Virus record (IMG/VR): IMGVR_UViG_3300021479_000014
Span: 1-64,000 of that record
DNA length: 64,000 bases
DNA from: a virus
Reading direction: 5' to 3' (one strand)
Both the position numbers and the translations under genes were made by a program. Of the stretch, positions 31,319-37,875 are shown one piece after another (position 1 is the stretch's first letter; each line of letters starts with the position of its first letter). The notes under the pieces were generated by a model. That model had not been told where the DNA came from and made no database searches. It saw only the letters and a list, made by a program, of their open reading frames with translations.

Positions 31319-32332
31319 TCAGCTATATCTTGTCCACATTTCTTCAAAATCTTCTCTGAACCAGCATCGCTGAACTGGGCCACGTTGGTGCCTATATGGA
31401 CGGCTTCTGATTTGGAATTCCACTAGTATGTTACCCAATACTCGTTTTGTGACTTTGTGCTCAGTATAATCAACCTCGAAATCACCGTCCTTATCTTCAC
31501 GTAATGTTTCGCAAAGATAATCTGTGGTGATGATCTTGGCCTTTGTTTTTGTGAACACTTTCTGTGTATCACGCAACACTGACTCTCTTATATCAAGAGT
31601 AGCACTCTCATTCATATACGTGAGAGCCATACTTCTGACTAAATGGCCTCTACCAAAATAGTCAGCAATGGCAATTAGAGGGCGCCACTTGTCTGCATTA
31701 CGTCCAACCATCGAAAGAGGCATTTTCGGATCTGGATCCAAATTTTGACCCGAATGTTCGGCCCATCTATGCAATTGAGATGCATAGTAATGTTCTCTTG
31801 GGCTGAACCTCTCAAGAGGTTTAGATGAGCGATGCAACCTGATTACAACTGATCTACTCATTAGAGTTGCTGGCACTTTACCGATACCAGCAAGTGCAAC
31901 TGGGCCATAAACTGGCCAATTGACTACAGTCTTATCTGGTTGTACGCGCGATACACTTCCACCGAAACTATGCCCGTCATTAAGAATGGATCTCATTCTC
32001 TTAACGATTGACATATTGTCCACTTCGTCAATCAACAATGAGTGTTTGTTGGCTAGACGAAGCAGAGATGCTTCAGATGGATCTATCACTCTTTTGGATT
32101 CCCACGCCATTGCACCAAGAATATTCAGAACTGTGCTCTTTCCACAATTCGGAACAGGACTGAGGATAGTCAATCTTGGTGACTTATCGTATTGCATGAA
32201 GACGTGAGTATGTAGCGCCCATAGAGCTGCGCCCCACATATAGTGTGGTTTAGCATCCATATAAGTGTCGAAGACCTTTACCACTTGATCAAGTGGATTT
32301 GGCGCTATGGTAGTTTTCTTTGTCAGACTCAC
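31319..32332 (-). CDS. DUF3631-type ATPase/helicase-like protein
   Basis: A 337-residue protein of the DUF3631 kind, found fused to prophage and plasmid primases. Walker A is PNCGKST at 61-67 and Walker B LLIDEVDN at about 99-106. Downstream are DGHSFGGSVSRVQPDK, a sensor-like VALAGIGKVPATLMSRSVV, and RWRPLIAIADYFG-type residues near 215. Together with the DUF5906 helicase it gives the phage two different primase-associated ATPases. It is a single-gene leftward unit with its own promoter at 32455-32483. Confidence 0.8.
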   Translation of the reverse strand: MSLTKKTTIAPNPLDQVVKVFDTYMDAKPHYMWGAALWALHTHVFMQYDKSPRLTILSPVPNCGKSTVLNILGAMAWESKRVIDPSEASLLRLANKHSLLIDEVDNMSIVKRMRSILNDGHSFGGSVSRVQPDKTVVNWPVYGPVALAGIGKVPATLMSRSVVIRLHRSSKPLERFSPREHYYASQLHRWAEHSGQNLDPDPKMPLSMVGRNADKWRPLIAIADYFGRGHLVRSMALTYMNESATLDIRESVLRDTQKVFTKTKAKIITTDYLCETLREDKDGDFEVDYTEHKVTKRVLGNILVEFQIRSRPYRHQRGPVQRCWFREDFEEMWTRYS

Positions 32333-34164: not shown

Positions 34165-34410
34165 ATGGCAAACATAAGCATACCGGTGGAACTTATCGAC
34201 AGCTTCAACTACTTCCTCAATAAGGGAGCTGGCGATCACAAAGCGAAGCCAATGATAGACGAACTTGGAATGACTAAGATAAGAAAGATAATGAAATTAA
34301 GAACGTTCTTCAATAAGAACGAGCAATATGGATACAGAATTGTTGCTCATGGTCCAGACGATAAAGAAGAAACTGGAGATGATAGCTATTACGAATTCAT
34401 ATTTCCGTAA
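34165..34410 (+). CDS. Small protein, unknown; upstream of hammerhead ribozyme 1
   Basis: An 81-residue protein (NISIPVELIDSFNYFLNKG; RIVAHGPDDKEETGDDS). AGGAG precedes the ATG. Its stop codon is only 3 nt from the first base of a hammerhead ribozyme, so its mRNA is predicted to end in the ribozyme's stem III after self-cleavage. Confidence 0.6.
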   Translation: MANISIPVELIDSFNYFLNKGAGDHKAKPMIDELGMTKIRKIMKLRTFFNKNEQYGYRIVAHGPDDKEETGDDSYYEFIFP

Positions 34411-34413
34411 ATA

Positions 34414-34470
34414 GATCGAAACAGCCAGTGCGATTGGCTGTCCTAGCGTTTGGCGCTAGCTGATGAGATC
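34414..34470 (+). ncRNA. Hammerhead ribozyme 1 (type II)
   Basis: All core elements are present in type II (open stem II) order. Stem II 3' strand GATC (34414-34417), G12-A13-A14 (34418-34420), stem III ACAGCCA/TGGCTGT (34421-34427/34435-34441, 7 bp, loop GTGCGAT), cleavage base C17 (34442, site G-U-C), stem I CTAGCG/CGCTAG (34443-34448/34454-34459, loop TTTGG), CTGATGA (34460-34466), stem II 5' strand GATC (34467-34470). A15.1-U16.1 is intact. Predicted cut after 34442 leaves a 46-nt leader on the next gene (ATG 34489). Starts 3 nt after a stop codon. Confidence 0.9.
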
Positions 34471-34488
34471 AGTAACAGGAGAAGTAAA

Positions 34489-34908
34489 ATGAAGATAAAT
34501 CTTAACATACATATCATGTCGTGGATGTGTCGCGAACATGACATCATCGATCCAGATCTTATCCAACTAAAGAACAATCACGAACAAATGATTGTGGATA
34601 TTTCAGAAAGGATATCAATAAGATTTGATTATCCTCTTTCACATTCTGTATTGCTCCAATTTGGTGGCAAGAAGCCGTGGAGATTATCAGATCTAATTGA
34701 TGTTGTCTGCGCCGGATATGTGAAGATATATGACGAGGAAGATGAAACCAGAACGCTTCCAGCTAGTGCTCCGTTGGATTCGATTCTGGTCAATCGTCCT
34801 AAAACTGACGGCAAGCACGGCATCTGGGGACACATCCTAAATGACTTGTATATTGAAGGAATATACAAAGGATCAGACGGTGTTTGGTTGCTACAAATGG
34901 GATCATAA
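34489..34908 (+). CDS. Unknown protein downstream of ribozyme 1
   Basis: A 139-residue protein from ATG 34489 (CAGGAG 7-8 nt upstream; an upstream in-frame ATG at 34450 lies inside the ribozyme). Contains HIMSWMCREHDIIDPDLIQL and LSDLIDVVCAGYVKIYDEED; the C-terminus looks like a winged-helix (GKHGIWGHILNDLYIEGIYK). Unknown function. Its stop directly abuts ribozyme 2. Confidence 0.65.
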   Translation: MKINLNIHIMSWMCREHDIIDPDLIQLKNNHEQMIVDISERISIRFDYPLSHSVLLQFGGKKPWRLSDLIDVVCAGYVKIYDEEDETRTLPASAPLDSILVNRPKTDGKHGIWGHILNDLYIEGIYKGSDGVWLLQMGS

Positions 34909-34969
34909 GACCGAAAGGGTGGCGCCACAAGCGCCATTCTCCTAGCGTTAGGCGCTAGCTGACGAGGTC
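34909..34969 (+). ncRNA. Hammerhead ribozyme 2 (type II)
   Basis: Stem II 3' strand GACC (34909-34912), GAA (34913-34915), stem III 10 bp (34916-34925 with 34931-34940, two G-U pairs, loop CACAA), cleavage base C34941 (site C-U-C), stem I CTAGCG/CGCTAG (34942-34947/34953-34958, loop TTAGG), CTGACGA (34959-34965), stem II 5' strand GGTC (34966-34969). Stem II differs from ribozyme 1 at two positions with both partners changed, so pairing is kept. Starts at the base after a TAA stop; the predicted cut is 46 nt before ATG 34988. Confidence 0.9.
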
Positions 34970-34987
34970 AGTAACAGGAGAACTAAA

Positions 34988-35209
34988 ATGGTAAAAGCAG
35001 TATATTGGTATGGACCAGATAAAACTGGTCACGACGACTTTGGTATGCCATACGGCGATTTTATGTTTGATGGCAAAACAAAGATGGGACCTTGGGCCTG
35101 CATGAGTAGCTATAGCTGGGAGAAACACGGCTGTGGCAAACTCGGAACTGGCTTTGGCCAGAAGTACAAGAGACAGGCTGATGGCCGTTGGCTTAAGGTG
35201 GAGGGTTAA
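34988..35209 (+). CDS. Small protein downstream of ribozyme 2
   Basis: A 73-residue protein rich in Gly, Lys and aromatics (VKAVYWYGPDKTGHDDFGMP; KHGCGKLGTGFGQKYKRQ). CAGGAG precedes the ATG. Unknown. Its stop touches the next ATG. Confidence 0.6.
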   Translation: MVKAVYWYGPDKTGHDDFGMPYGDFMFDGKTKMGPWACMSSYSWEKHGCGKLGTGFGQKYKRQADGRWLKVEG

Positions 35210-35560
35210 ATGGCGCGCATCAGTGTAAGACGTGGATCTGAAGGTCCAGAACACGATCCGTATTCATATACGGAGATCACGTTCTACTTCACAGATTCTG
35301 AGCGATCAAAAGTCGTTTATCATAGAGGATTAGGTGAGTGGCTTAAATATGGTGGTCGAACATACGACGCTAGTGACAGTTGGTTACCATCGTCAATTGA
35401 CTATCTATTTAAGCACATAACTGGACTCTCAGTTCGTAGAGCCGAAGAGATTCCAGAGATGCTGTTTGAGCGTTCCATGCGTAAATACACTAAAGCTGAG
35501 CGCTGGGCCATCATGGAATGCATCGAAGCCGATGAGGCCATGCTCAGAAACTGCTATTGA
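35210..35560 (+). CDS. Unknown protein
   Basis: A 116-residue protein starting right after the previous stop (TAAATGG). Mixed alpha/beta: SYTEITFYFTDSERSKVVYH, then LGEWLKYGGRTYDASDSW, and a helical end (AERWAIMECIEADEAMLRN). Followed by a repeated two-hairpin leader for the next gene. Confidence 0.6.
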   Translation: MARISVRRGSEGPEHDPYSYTEITFYFTDSERSKVVYHRGLGEWLKYGGRTYDASDSWLPSSIDYLFKHITGLSVRRAEEIPEMLFERSMRKYTKAERWAIMECIEADEAMLRNCY

Positions 35561-35564
35561 AATA

Positions 35565-35613
35565 ATTGAACTTTGGAGCGCAGCAATGCGCTCCGCTTTT
35601 AGGCAATTTTGCC
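35565..35613 (+). ncRNA. Two-hairpin leader element, copy A
   Basis: ATTGAACTT (35565), hairpin GGAGCGCA-GCAA-TGCGCTCC (35575-35594), then GCTTTTA and hairpin GGCA-ATTT-TGCC (35602-35613). Copy B at 36575-36623 has the same flanks and second hairpin but an unrelated first stem. The first hairpin plus CTTTTA also looks like a weak intrinsic terminator. It sits right after a stop codon and just before a ribosome site. Confidence 0.6.
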
Positions 35614-35630
35614 AGACTGAGGAGAATAAA

Positions 35631-35930
35631 ATGAGGTACGTTGTTATCAATAGAGCATGTGATGGAACACATATTTCGTCACATGCTACGTTTGAGAAAG
35701 CACAAAAGCGTGTGGAAGAAATGGTTGGCAGAAGAGAAGGGCCATTCAAACTTAATCAACCCTATTGTTCTGATTGGGGTAACGTTCTCACAATCGAGGA
35801 GCGCCCAGGCAATTGGACTGCGAATACTGAGCGGCGCGTTTCCGAGGCTTTTGATGCTAACGAATGTGGTTTTGCAACAAAGGCTCAAATTAAATTGTTG
35901 CATGAAAAGGGTTGGCTGACAGGAGAGTAA
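35631..35930 (+). CDS. Unknown protein downstream of leader A
   Basis: A 99-residue protein from ATG 35631 (GAGGAG 8 nt upstream). RYVVINRACDGTHISSHATF at the start; ERRVSEAFDANECGFATKAQ and then LLHEKGWLTGE at the end. Unknown. Confidence 0.65.
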   Translation: MRYVVINRACDGTHISSHATFEKAQKRVEEMVGRREGPFKLNQPYCSDWGNVLTIEERPGNWTANTERRVSEAFDANECGFATKAQIKLLHEKGWLTGE

Positions 35931-36125
35931 ATGACAGAAAATCAAGAGTTTAGTATTTGGATGTCAAGGGTAGAATTTTACCTTGAATCTATGGTAAAGA
36001 AGTCGTTGACACTATTGAAGTCATATGACTATCGCGATGACTTCAATAAAGGTTTTCTACCAGAAGAAACAGCAACTCGTGTAATTCAAAGGAGCAGAAA
36101 ATGGCAAAGAAAGACCCGTGGATAA
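35931..36125 (+). CDS. Small protein, unknown
   Basis: A 64-residue protein (TENQEFSIWMSRVEFYLESM; basic end RSRKWQRKTRG) that starts immediately after the previous stop. Unknown function. Confidence 0.55.
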   Translation: MTENQEFSIWMSRVEFYLESMVKKSLTLLKSYDYRDDFNKGFLPEETATRVIQRSRKWQRKTRG

Positions 36126-36400
36126 TATGCCCTGTCTGTGAAGGAGAGGGAAAGACAGTCAATCCAAATATTGACGCGAATGGATTGACTGCGGAAGACT
36201 TCAATGAAGACCCAGACTTCAGAGAAGACTATATGAGCGGCGTATATGACATTACGTGCGCTGCATGTGGAGGTCAACGCGTCATCAAGAAGCAACGCAT
36301 GAAAGAGCTGGCGCGAAATGCCGAAAGTCGCCGTCTGGCTGCTCGTGAAGATGGCGATTATGAAGGCTATTGCGGCGCTGGTGATTGGAGATATGGATAA
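36101..36400 (+). CDS. DnaJ-type zinc-finger protein
   Basis: A 99-residue protein with CPVCEGEG (about 10-17) and CAACGGQR (about 53-60), the paired CxxCxGxG motif of DnaJ-like zinc fingers, with an acidic insert between. Basic second half. GGAG precedes the ATG. One of several such small zinc proteins in the window. Confidence 0.65.
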   Translation: MAKKDPWIICPVCEGEGKTVNPNIDANGLTAEDFNEDPDFREDYMSGVYDITCAACGGQRVIKKQRMKELARNAESRRLAAREDGDYEGYCGAGDWRYG

Positions 36401-36579
36401 TGCATATCCTCCTTACCATAATTGTTATCATTGTACTAGTGGTTGTTTTTAGCAACCTAAATCAACAAGGAGTGATAACAGCTTGGAAAGGTCCAAATAA
36501 CAATCTTGGTTGTATACCATTATTGTTAGTCTTTATATTTACCATTTGGGCCTTATGCCAATTGCCTGTAATACATTGA
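36400..36579 (+). CDS. Small two-helix membrane protein
   Basis: A 59-residue protein from ATG 36400 (TAATG overlap with the previous stop; an ATG at 36385 is the alternative). Two hydrophobic segments: LLTIIVIIVLVVVFSNL and LLVFIFTIWALCQLPVI, joined by a polar loop. A holin-like or inner-membrane accessory is possible; there is no adjacent lysin to support that. Confidence 0.6.
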   Translation: MHILLTIIVIIVLVVVFSNLNQQGVITAWKGPNNNLGCIPLLLVFIFTIWALCQLPVIH

Positions 36580-36623
36580 ACTTAATGGCAGGTGCGATCT
36601 GCCATCTTTTAGGCAATTTTGCC
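36575..36623 (+). ncRNA. Two-hairpin leader element, copy B
   Basis: ATTGAACTT (36575, overlapping the stop), hairpin ATGGCAG-GTGCGAT-CTGCCAT (36585-36605), CTTTTA, hairpin GGCA-ATTT-TGCC (36612-36623). Flanks and second hairpin match copy A. The first loop, GTGCGAT, is identical to the stem III loop of hammerhead ribozyme 1. Confidence 0.6.
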
Positions 36624-36639
36624 AAACTAGGAGAATAAA

Positions 36640-36897
36640 ATGGATAATCCTACAGTAGTGGTAGAAATAGAAGTGGATGCCGTACAAGAGGCCATCCAAA
36701 CAATCCGAAAGATCAATAGCAAGATTGCTTGGGTGCTGGAAAATAATCCGCCATACAAGCAGAAGGAGCTTGATGATCTGAAGTATCGCAACGCCAATCT
36801 TACACTGGTTGAGTTGCGCCTCACTAAAGCTCTGAGCGATAGGGCTTTGGCCAATCAAGCCAAGGGCAATGTCGTTAAGATGGGAGGCAAGAAATGA
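36640..36897 (+). CDS. Small coiled-coil protein downstream of leader B
   Basis: An 85-residue helical protein (VVVEIEVDAVQEAIQTIRKI; LRLTKALSDRALANQAKG). TAGGAG precedes the ATG. Ends in a basic GGKK tail. Unknown. Confidence 0.65.
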   Translation: MDNPTVVVEIEVDAVQEAIQTIRKINSKIAWVLENNPPYKQKELDDLKYRNANLTLVELRLTKALSDRALANQAKGNVVKMGGKK

Positions 36898-37139
36898 GAA
36901 AGGCTCTATTGGCAGAATATAAAGTCAAGCCAAATGGCACAAAACTCCTTGACGATTTCAGAGGAGACAGAATTTATGGTAATTGTTATATTATCATAAA
37001 GGCTGGCGTAGAAATCTACGAGGTTATTACCTCAACGTTGGGTGATTGGTGTAACTGCCCAGCCGGACAACATGAGAAGAAATGCAAGCATCTATCTATG
37101 GTGTATGATTTCAAAGAGAAGGAAGAAAAGGTCATATGA
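36894..37139 (+). CDS. SWIM zinc-finger small protein
   Basis: An 81-residue protein with the SWIM pattern CxC-xn-CxH: CNCPAGQHEKKCKHLS at about 53-68. SWIM fingers bind DNA or protein and are rare in phages as free-standing domains. It overlaps both neighbours by 4 nt. A second, diverged SWIM protein lies at 43117..43317. Confidence 0.75.
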   Translation: MRKALLAEYKVKPNGTKLLDDFRGDRIYGNCYIIIKAGVEIYEVITSTLGDWCNCPAGQHEKKCKHLSMVYDFKEKEEKVI

Positions 37140-37348
37140 AATACAATGCGACGTGTACGCTTCAAGCAGTACATATCAAAACTGGCAAAGTGATAGATAT
37201 TTGTCAGTTTGATTCTTCTCCTCTTGAGATAGAAGCATCTTCACAAGAAGACGCAGACGAAAAATGGTCCAGACGCTGCCTCATCGAGGCAATGTGCTCT
37301 GGTTCTGATATAGCCAGAAAAGAATACAAGCAAGGGAAATGGAAATGA
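37136..37348 (+). CDS. Small protein, unknown
   Basis: A 70-residue protein (KYNATCTLQAVHIKTGKVID; ASSQEDADEKWSRRCLIEAM). Four-base overlaps with both neighbours. Unknown; may function with the SWIM protein before it. Confidence 0.6.
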   Translation: MKYNATCTLQAVHIKTGKVIDICQFDSSPLEIEASSQEDADEKWSRRCLIEAMCSGSDIARKEYKQGKWK

Positions 37349-37593
37349 ATAAACAAGACAAAGCCAGGTATCCTTTTATACGTGCCTGGGGCTACCAACT
37401 TGGTTCTTTTCAATATTATATCGAGAGTGAAATTGAAAGAGCCATTCGAGAAAATGCTCCTGAGCGTGCCATTTATAAAAGTGGTGCAGGAGGGTGGCGA
37501 ACTATAGATGACTGCAAGGATGAAGCAGTCAAACAACAGTGTATTGATTGGGTAGAAGCACATAAGAACGATCAATACGTTTCTGACGAATAA
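37345..37593 (+). CDS. Small protein, unknown; upstream of hammerhead ribozyme 3
   Basis: An 82-residue protein from ATG 37345 (ATGA overlap; ATG 37339 is two codons upstream). NKQDKARYPFIRAWGYQLGS at the start; helical, charged remainder. Its TAA is followed at once by the first base of ribozyme 3. Confidence 0.6.
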   Translation: MNKQDKARYPFIRAWGYQLGSFQYYIESEIERAIRENAPERAIYKSGAGGWRTIDDCKDEAVKQQCIDWVEAHKNDQYVSDE

Positions 37594-37654
37594 GACCGAA
37601 ACTGGCCGCAGTGATGCGCCCAGTCGTTGCGTAATGCGCAGCCTGACGATGGTC
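37594..37654 (+). ncRNA. Hammerhead ribozyme 3 (type II, slightly diverged)
   Basis: Stem II 3' strand GACC (37594-37597), GAA (37598-37600), stem III ACTGG-c-CGC/GCG-c-CCAGT (37601-37609/37616-37624, one C-C mismatch, loop AGTGAT), cleavage base C37625 (site G-U-C), stem I GTTGCG/CGCAGC (37626-37631/37637-37642, one G-U), CTGACGA (37643-37649), then one extra T and GGTC (37651-37654). The stem sequences differ from copies 1 and 2 but still pair. The extra T next to stem II may reduce activity. Starts directly after a stop; cut to ATG is 49 nt. Confidence 0.8.
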
Positions 37655-37674
37655 AGTAACCCAAGGAGATGTAA

Positions 37675-37818
37675 ATGGGCGATCCAGAAGAGCATAAAGA
37701 CGAAGAGTTGACTGTAAAATCTGATGCTCCAAAGGAAGAAGGGCCAAAAACAGATCCAGAAGAGAAAGAGGCGGATCCAATTCGCCCAGGAGAAGGCGGA
37801 CAACCTGAAGTAGCGTAA
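37675..37818 (+). CDS. Small acidic protein downstream of ribozyme 3
   Basis: A 47-residue, very acidic, Pro-rich protein (GDPEEHKDEELTVKSDAPKE). AAGGAGAT lies 7 nt before the ATG. Predicted disordered; DNA-mimic or inhibitor roles are imaginable but not shown. Confidence 0.6.
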   Translation: MGDPEEHKDEELTVKSDAPKEEGPKTDPEEKEADPIRPGEGGQPEVA

Positions 37819-37826
37819 TCAACTTG

Positions 37827-37860
37827 CCGCTCCCATTTTAGGGAGGATGGGAGCGGTTTT
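37827..37860 (+). terminator. Intrinsic terminator
   Basis: CCGCTCCCAT (37827-37836) pairs with ATGGGAGCGG (37847-37856), 10 bp, loop of 10 nt, followed by TTTT. Confidence 0.8.
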
Positions 37861-37875
37861 AACTAGGGATGGAAA

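Follow-up and report, generated by a model that had tools for sequence, protein, structure and literature searches.

What a tailed phage gains from hammerhead ribozymes set between its genes is the question raised by a locus of an uncultured virus, IMG/VR virus record IMGVR_UViG_3300021479_000014 (80,609 bases), of which the first 64 kb (positions 1 to 64,000, hereafter the window) were analyzed. An initial annotation, made from the letters alone, had placed three type II hammerheads, here called HH1, HH2 and HH3, in an operon, taken to be early, at 34–38 kb; the role of prokaryotic hammerheads has been called an open question (PMC6155905). Clusters of type II hammerheads between the genes of phages had been reported before (Perreault et al. 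2011, PMC3088659), which makes the three elements, taken alone, further examples of a kind already known. What they share with a large subset of viral type II hammerheads, and what apparently has not been described so far, is a short strand, RUCAG (R, purine), which lies in or just after stem II and is able to pair with the CUGAY (Y, pyrimidine) of the catalytic core. Neither this strand nor the finding that placement behind a stop codon is a general rule, and no local oddity, formed part of the initial annotation.

Identification of the three hammerheads

A covariance model (R1), trained on 48 unrelated hammerheads from viruses outside this phage group, was used to search the window and returned precisely the three annotated elements, all on the + strand and with no other match up to E = 5: HH1 at 34414–34470 (E = 6.2e-18, 55.3 bits), HH2 at 34909–34969 (E = 1.7e-14, 46.1 bits) and HH3 at 37594–37654 (E = 1.6e-12, 40.9 bits). 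The same model recovers all copies in the relatives of the phage, and neither it nor a motif scan found a further copy in the remaining 16.6 kb of the record. A strict hammerhead motif occurs twice in the window and is present, once, in only 1 of 200 dinucleotide shuffles; HH3 is recovered by the scan once one inserted base is allowed. All three elements have the type II plan II-GAA-III-UH-I-CUGANGA-II, with core CUGANGA, GAA, A15.1-U16.1 and H17; stems I and III are closed by loops and stem II is open. The pairing is supported across sequences, covariation being seen in the R1 training set, whose elements were preselected for pairing. That HH1–HH3 are type II hammerhead ribozymes is, on these grounds, practically certain.

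In HH1, stem II (34414–34417/34467–34470) encloses GAA (34418–34420), the stem III hairpin (34421–34441), C17 (34442), the stem I hairpin (34443–34459) and the core CTGATGA (34460–34466), with the predicted cut at 34442^34443. The corresponding parts of HH2 are stem II 34909–34912/34966–34969, GAA 34913–34915, stem III 34916–34940, C17 34941, stem I 34942–34958 and core CTGACGA 34959–34965 (predicted cut 34941^34942), and those of HH3 are stem II 37594–37597/37651–37654, GAA 37598–37600, stem III 37601–37624 (one mismatch), C17 37625, stem I 37626–37642 and core CTGACGA 37643–37649 (predicted cut 37625^37626).

Two statements of the initial annotation need correction. The core region is not invariant in all three elements, for HH3 carries an extra U (T at 37650) between A9 and stem II, which is absent from its ortholog in the related locus L006. 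The plus-strand hammerhead of the viroid CChMVd likewise has an additional residue, an A, which lies between A9 and G10.1, and there a change of this A to U raised trans-cleavage 3-4-fold (PMC3705267). Since CChMVd tolerates an extra residue at the same place, HH3 need not be dead, and the idea that it is a dead ribozyme is weakened by this precedent, even though the two differ in that CChMVd is a viroid, has an extra A rather than a U and involves no phage operon. Covariation of the stems, on the other hand, stands for stem II (GATC/GATC, GACC/GGTC) and falls for stem I between HH1 and HH2. These two are near-duplicates over their 3' half (34441–34491 vs 34940–34990, 92% identical over 51 nucleotides, stem I and tail shared) and therefore yield no stem I covariation; within the window stem I differs, and covaries, in HH3 alone. 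The conserved motifs in loop III (GUGCGAU, CCACAA) were considered as protein sites and dropped, loop III being an ordinary UNCG/GNRA-type tetraloop in other phages.

Relatives were located via the protein of gene 34489–34908. They have the same operon with 3–6 hammerheads, every one in sense direction. Compared with L006, the ribozymes are identical at 57/57, 61/61 and 59/60 positions, the adjoining genes being 70% (alignable only in part), 91%, 78% and 96% identical and the gene before HH3 being replaced outright. The retention of the ribozymes while neighbouring genes diverge speaks for selection, and HH1–HH3 are predicted, with good confidence, to be active in vivo.

A tail strand that covaries with the catalytic core

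RNA folding places the core CUGAY in a hairpin with RUCAG. In HH1 the strand is ATCAG (34468–34472), complementary to CTGAT at 34460–34464 of the core; in HH2 it is GTCAG (34967–34971), facing CTGAC at 34959–34963, and in HH3 GTCAG (37652–37656), facing CTGAC at 37643–37647. In the stem II class to which the window elements belong, RUC forms part of the 3' strand of stem II and AG comes next.

Such complementarity was examined in a larger set of viral elements. Six stem II patterns were searched, at least 31 to about 120 viral stretches matching per pattern, and filtering left 709 distinct elements among the matches listed, 17 of which came from contigs of bacterial genomes. The sampling is by stem II pattern and the filter required stems I and III, so that pair counts in the training set are conditioned on pairing; the tests on RUCAG are independent of this filter. 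The quality of the set can be judged from the GACC pattern, picked on stem II, GAAA and core alone, for which 131/136 elements (96%) also had stems I and III and the correct cleavage triplet, against 2/2680 shuffled middles; the weakest viral class in the same filter was GAAC, with 45%.

For the chance test we used only elements whose stem II cannot spell RUCAG (n = 359). The base before TCAG is predominantly A where N7, the only free core position, is T (A41 G9 C3 T3) and predominantly G where N7 is C (G23 A1 C2; p = 6.8e-11). Thus the R of RUCAG tracks N7. A prediction fixed in advance for two held-out stem II classes gave A15/G1 (N7 = T) vs A0/G4 (N7 = C), p = 0.001, and counting by cluster, with related or same-contig elements merged, gave 24/6 vs 0/14 (p = 3.4e-7). 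TCAG itself is present in 109 tails, as compared with 29-34 for AGTC, GACT and CTGA, and AG stands directly 3' of stem II in 148/198 elements where the strand ends in TC vs 62/511 elsewhere (p = 3.7e-58). Moreover, a C opposite G8, which lengthens the pairing, is enriched (24/40, p = 5.6e-7), and at locus L286 a common tail is found in two copies (ACATCAGCCACTGAGGAG / ACGTCAGCCACTGAGGAG) that have the matching N7 = T / C, i.e. a compensatory change. The position of the strand varies from 0 to 15 nucleotides after stem II. Replication in bacterial genome contigs was attempted with a GGAC scan, in which 17 elements passed, 2 of them with the motif, too few for a test. Taken together, the counts make it highly probable that the CUGAY:RUCAG pairing is real and selected.

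Relation to known hammerheads

Type II hammerheads of bacteria and prophages were described by Perreault et al. (PMC3088659) and are represented by Rfam RF02276 (Hammerhead_II; gathering threshold 37 bits). HH1–HH3 resemble these in permutation, core, cleavage at C17 and clustering between genes of phage operons, and differ in having a stem II of 4 base pairs, no pseudoknot between loop I and tail, and RUCAG complementary to the core. A search with this model, a check proposed along with the initial annotation, reported no hammerhead in the window; at gathering and permissive thresholds the whole 80.6-kb record gave no match even at E <= 10. As positive controls, 35 elements matched in the pseudoknot-type loci L258, L293, L295, L329, L336 and L337, and there was no match in L019, L088, L109 and L286, the model missing the RUCAG subtype in every such locus tested. 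The lack of an Rfam match thus reflects a limit of the type II model and is not evidence against hammerhead identity.

A pseudoknot was scored as at least 4 base pairs between loop I and the 3' tail. By this measure complementarity exceeds expectation only where RUCAG is absent (99 vs 55 expected); in the RUCAG groups it stays at the shuffled level (15 vs 16.3 shuffled; GRTC class, 20 vs 17.2). From this split and the misses of RF02276, HH1–HH3 are regarded as belonging to a proposed second type II subtype, defined from sequence comparison by a 4-base-pair stem II, no loop pseudoknot and RUCAG. If this is true, a large subtype escapes the standard type II model and a second model would be needed for annotation. 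In cultured phages the RUCAG subtype was not found with two consensus queries. The cultured Streptomyces phages Celia (L737), Alvy (L738), Wentworth (L736) and Lizz (L739) have intergenic type II hammerheads that are absent from the annotation shown; those of Celia and Alvy form arrays of the pseudoknot subtype matching RF02276, and the Streptomyces phages found are mostly of this type. Being cultured, they are convenient for experiments.

Other systems show partial likeness. The PK hammerhead (crystal structure PDB 8YDC, PMC11300833) has the hammerhead core and chemistry in common with HH1–HH3, but a pseudoknot in place of helix II, where HH1–HH3 have a short-helix stem II and a tail able to pair with the core strand. 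HHphage of the haloviruses HF1/HF2 (PMC3088659) is likewise a hammerhead upstream of a gene start in a lytic prokaryotic virus, with a mapped transcript 5' end near the cut; unlike HH1–HH3 it is a single element with core insertions near C3, and its host is archaeal.

Two arrays were noted in passing. One phage contig (L336, 6402–14004) holds about eleven type II hammerheads over the Rfam threshold in about 7.6 kb, and at L258 (5300–10821) a stretch of about 5.5 kb has four Twister-P5 ribozymes among its Rfam type II hammerheads, so that different ribozyme classes may serve one intergenic role.

Placement at stop codons

As the initial annotation had it, the three elements start 0-3 nucleotides after a stop codon: HH1 lies 3 nucleotides behind the TAA (34408–34410) of the upstream gene (34165–34410), and HH2 and HH3 directly abut the TAA stops at 34906–34908 and 37591–37593. 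The distances of the predicted cuts from the next ATGs (at 34489, 34988 and 37675) are indeed 46, 46 and 49 nucleotides. Both features recur in the larger set. The upstream stop ends between 3 nucleotides before and 1 nucleotide inside stem II in 428/709 listed elements (60%), and most often (182 elements) the two overlap by a single base, which both completes the stop (UAG 142, UAA 39) and begins stem II. Terminator-like hairpins of the same viral contigs show stop-abutting placement in 10/228 cases (4%). Among elements of the GACC pattern, the distance from the cut to the following start codon is mostly 46-57 nucleotides. We found no report of this stop-codon rule in the literature searched, which left most subscription journals outside its scope. 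A terminating ribosome would, in this arrangement, cover stem II and GAAA, and might in this way gate cleavage. Together with the covarying anti-core strand, the fusion to the stop codon provides quantitative regularities that give testable hypotheses on the use of hammerheads by phages.

Proposed mechanism and alternatives

Processing of a polycistronic mRNA, with stem III left as the 3' hairpin of the upstream piece and stem I as the 5' hairpin of the downstream one, was proposed in the initial annotation and, earlier, for prophage arrays (PMC3088659); it is the natural reading of the arrangement of HH1–HH3 as well. For A. tumefaciens, cleavage has been demonstrated in vitro and in E. coli (PMC3088659). 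We propose that HH1–HH3 would cut the mRNA of the small-gene operon of this uncultured double-stranded DNA tailed phage as follows. The hammerhead would fold and cleave 3' of C17, leaving the upstream mRNA with a stem III hairpin, a 1-nucleotide overhang and a 2',3'-cyclic phosphate at its end. The stem II partner would depart with the upstream product and free the CUGAY(G) strand, which would then pair with (C)RUCAG and form a second hairpin immediately next to stem I. The refolding would block the reverse (ligation) reaction and aid product release, and the downstream message would gain a blunt 5'-OH end of two adjacent hairpins with its Shine-Dalgarno sequence largely open. In the folding model the predicted 3' products do fold as stem I plus a CUGAY/RUCAG hairpin, with pair probabilities of 0.74-0.99, and the Shine-Dalgarno AGGAG is mostly unpaired in HH1 and HH2 (34477–34481 and 34976–34980, for genes 34489–34908 and 34988–35209) and about half unpaired in HH3 (37664–37668, for gene 37675–37818). 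To the explanation as a whole, functional hammerheads with predicted cleavage and a core-capturing tail, we give a probability of roughly 0.6.

Several observations weigh against this explanation. In elements with stem II GATC, C and T are about equally common at N7 (10 vs 12), and as the C is left opposite RUCAG in a C-A mismatch, only UCAG:CUGA is constrained in this class; where the stem II strand ends in something other than TC, most elements are without RUCAG, which is thus not needed by the class as a whole. Nearest-neighbour folding, moreover, gives the alternative hairpin a stability equal to or above that of the hammerhead even before the cut, and the minimum-free-energy fold of the precursor includes it. 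This also fits an off-switch acting before cleavage, in which RUCAG sequesters CUGAY and cutting takes place only once an initiating ribosome, a protein or a helicase frees the core; the location of RUCAG just upstream of the Shine-Dalgarno sequence and of the stop codon against stem II means that ribosomes could influence both folds. In the HH1 and HH2 precursors little computed energy separates the two folds. However, such energy models leave out the stabilisation that the core gains from tertiary contacts and Mg2+. The variable position of RUCAG, without a conserved sensor, and the absence of any ligand- or protein-binding element among the features seen also speak against a switch, which we consider rather unlikely. 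Capture after cleavage seems to us about twice as probable as the off-switch, and for capture and capping as the role of RUCAG, as modelled here, the chances appear to be even.

Another possibility is that these are ordinary type II hammerheads in which UCAG makes a tertiary contact or serves as a translation-related tail motif, unpaired with the core. Loop-tail contacts are essential in type II hammerheads (PMC3088659) and TCAG is located where a tail contact would be; yet the R, whose distance from stem II varies, covaries with N7, a non-conserved core base that lies across from it in the proposed hairpin, and excess loop I-tail complementarity is lacking, as reported above, which makes this reading improbable. 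A further reading, in which the elements are kept chiefly as recombination linkers joining small genes that can be exchanged, and not because they process RNA, could be drawn from the retention of HH3 in L006 next to a replaced gene and from the 34/118 ends of homologous blocks between relatives that fall at a hammerhead (uniform null 15.0, maximum 28). When the ends are instead set at randomly chosen gene boundaries, they reach hammerheads as often (null mean 40.7), so that the effect is not above this control, and catalytic bases that are strictly conserved, alongside changes elsewhere that preserve pairing, require selection at the RNA level; we therefore hold the linker idea to be very improbable and set it aside. 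Equally improbable are decayed, inactive hammerheads acting merely as hairpins, be it as 3' stabiliser or terminator. The core insertion and stem III mismatch of HH3 would suit them, as would the inactivity in vitro of some consensus-like hammerheads (4/18 in PMC3088659), but the core has all its bases and these are conserved, the extra U of HH3 sits at the very site where U improved CChMVd cleavage, and a terminator scan gave no terminator-like site on the + strand of the region.

The capturing tail, if true, would be a natural way of dealing with the fact that hammerhead cleavage can reverse, and ribozyme engineering could make direct use of it. More tentatively, we suggest that a widespread phage type II subtype might work as a one-shot RNA cutter: RUCAG would capture the core and make cleavage irreversible, the spent ribozyme would cap the 5' end of the next mRNA, and fusion to the stop codon would leave the upstream gene a minimal 3' end sealed by a hairpin, giving two protected ends per junction without host nucleases.

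Other features of the phage and the locus

The phage is of the double-stranded DNA tailed type, with genes for terminase, portal, a DNA polymerase III alpha-type polymerase, helicase and ligase; a search against 50,697 phage records gave no close relative and no DNA similarity. Protein searches with the small genes adjoining the hammerheads at 34–38 kb gave no informative family, and promoter-like sites in the hammerhead region were no more frequent than expected by chance. A strong hairpin (z = -4.6) followed by a short T run is found at 37822–37861, 3' of gene 37675–37818, and is possibly a terminator. Two other intergenic elements, at 35561–35636 and 36577–36642, have in common TTGAACTT, a hairpin, CTTTTA and a small hairpin GGCAATTTTGCC, followed by AGGAG and ATG. 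Copies of these elements are present in L006, L008, L034 and L055, and the window holds a related stretch on its minus strand (position 31601 of the reverse strand); they may be a terminator plus operator, or some processing element.

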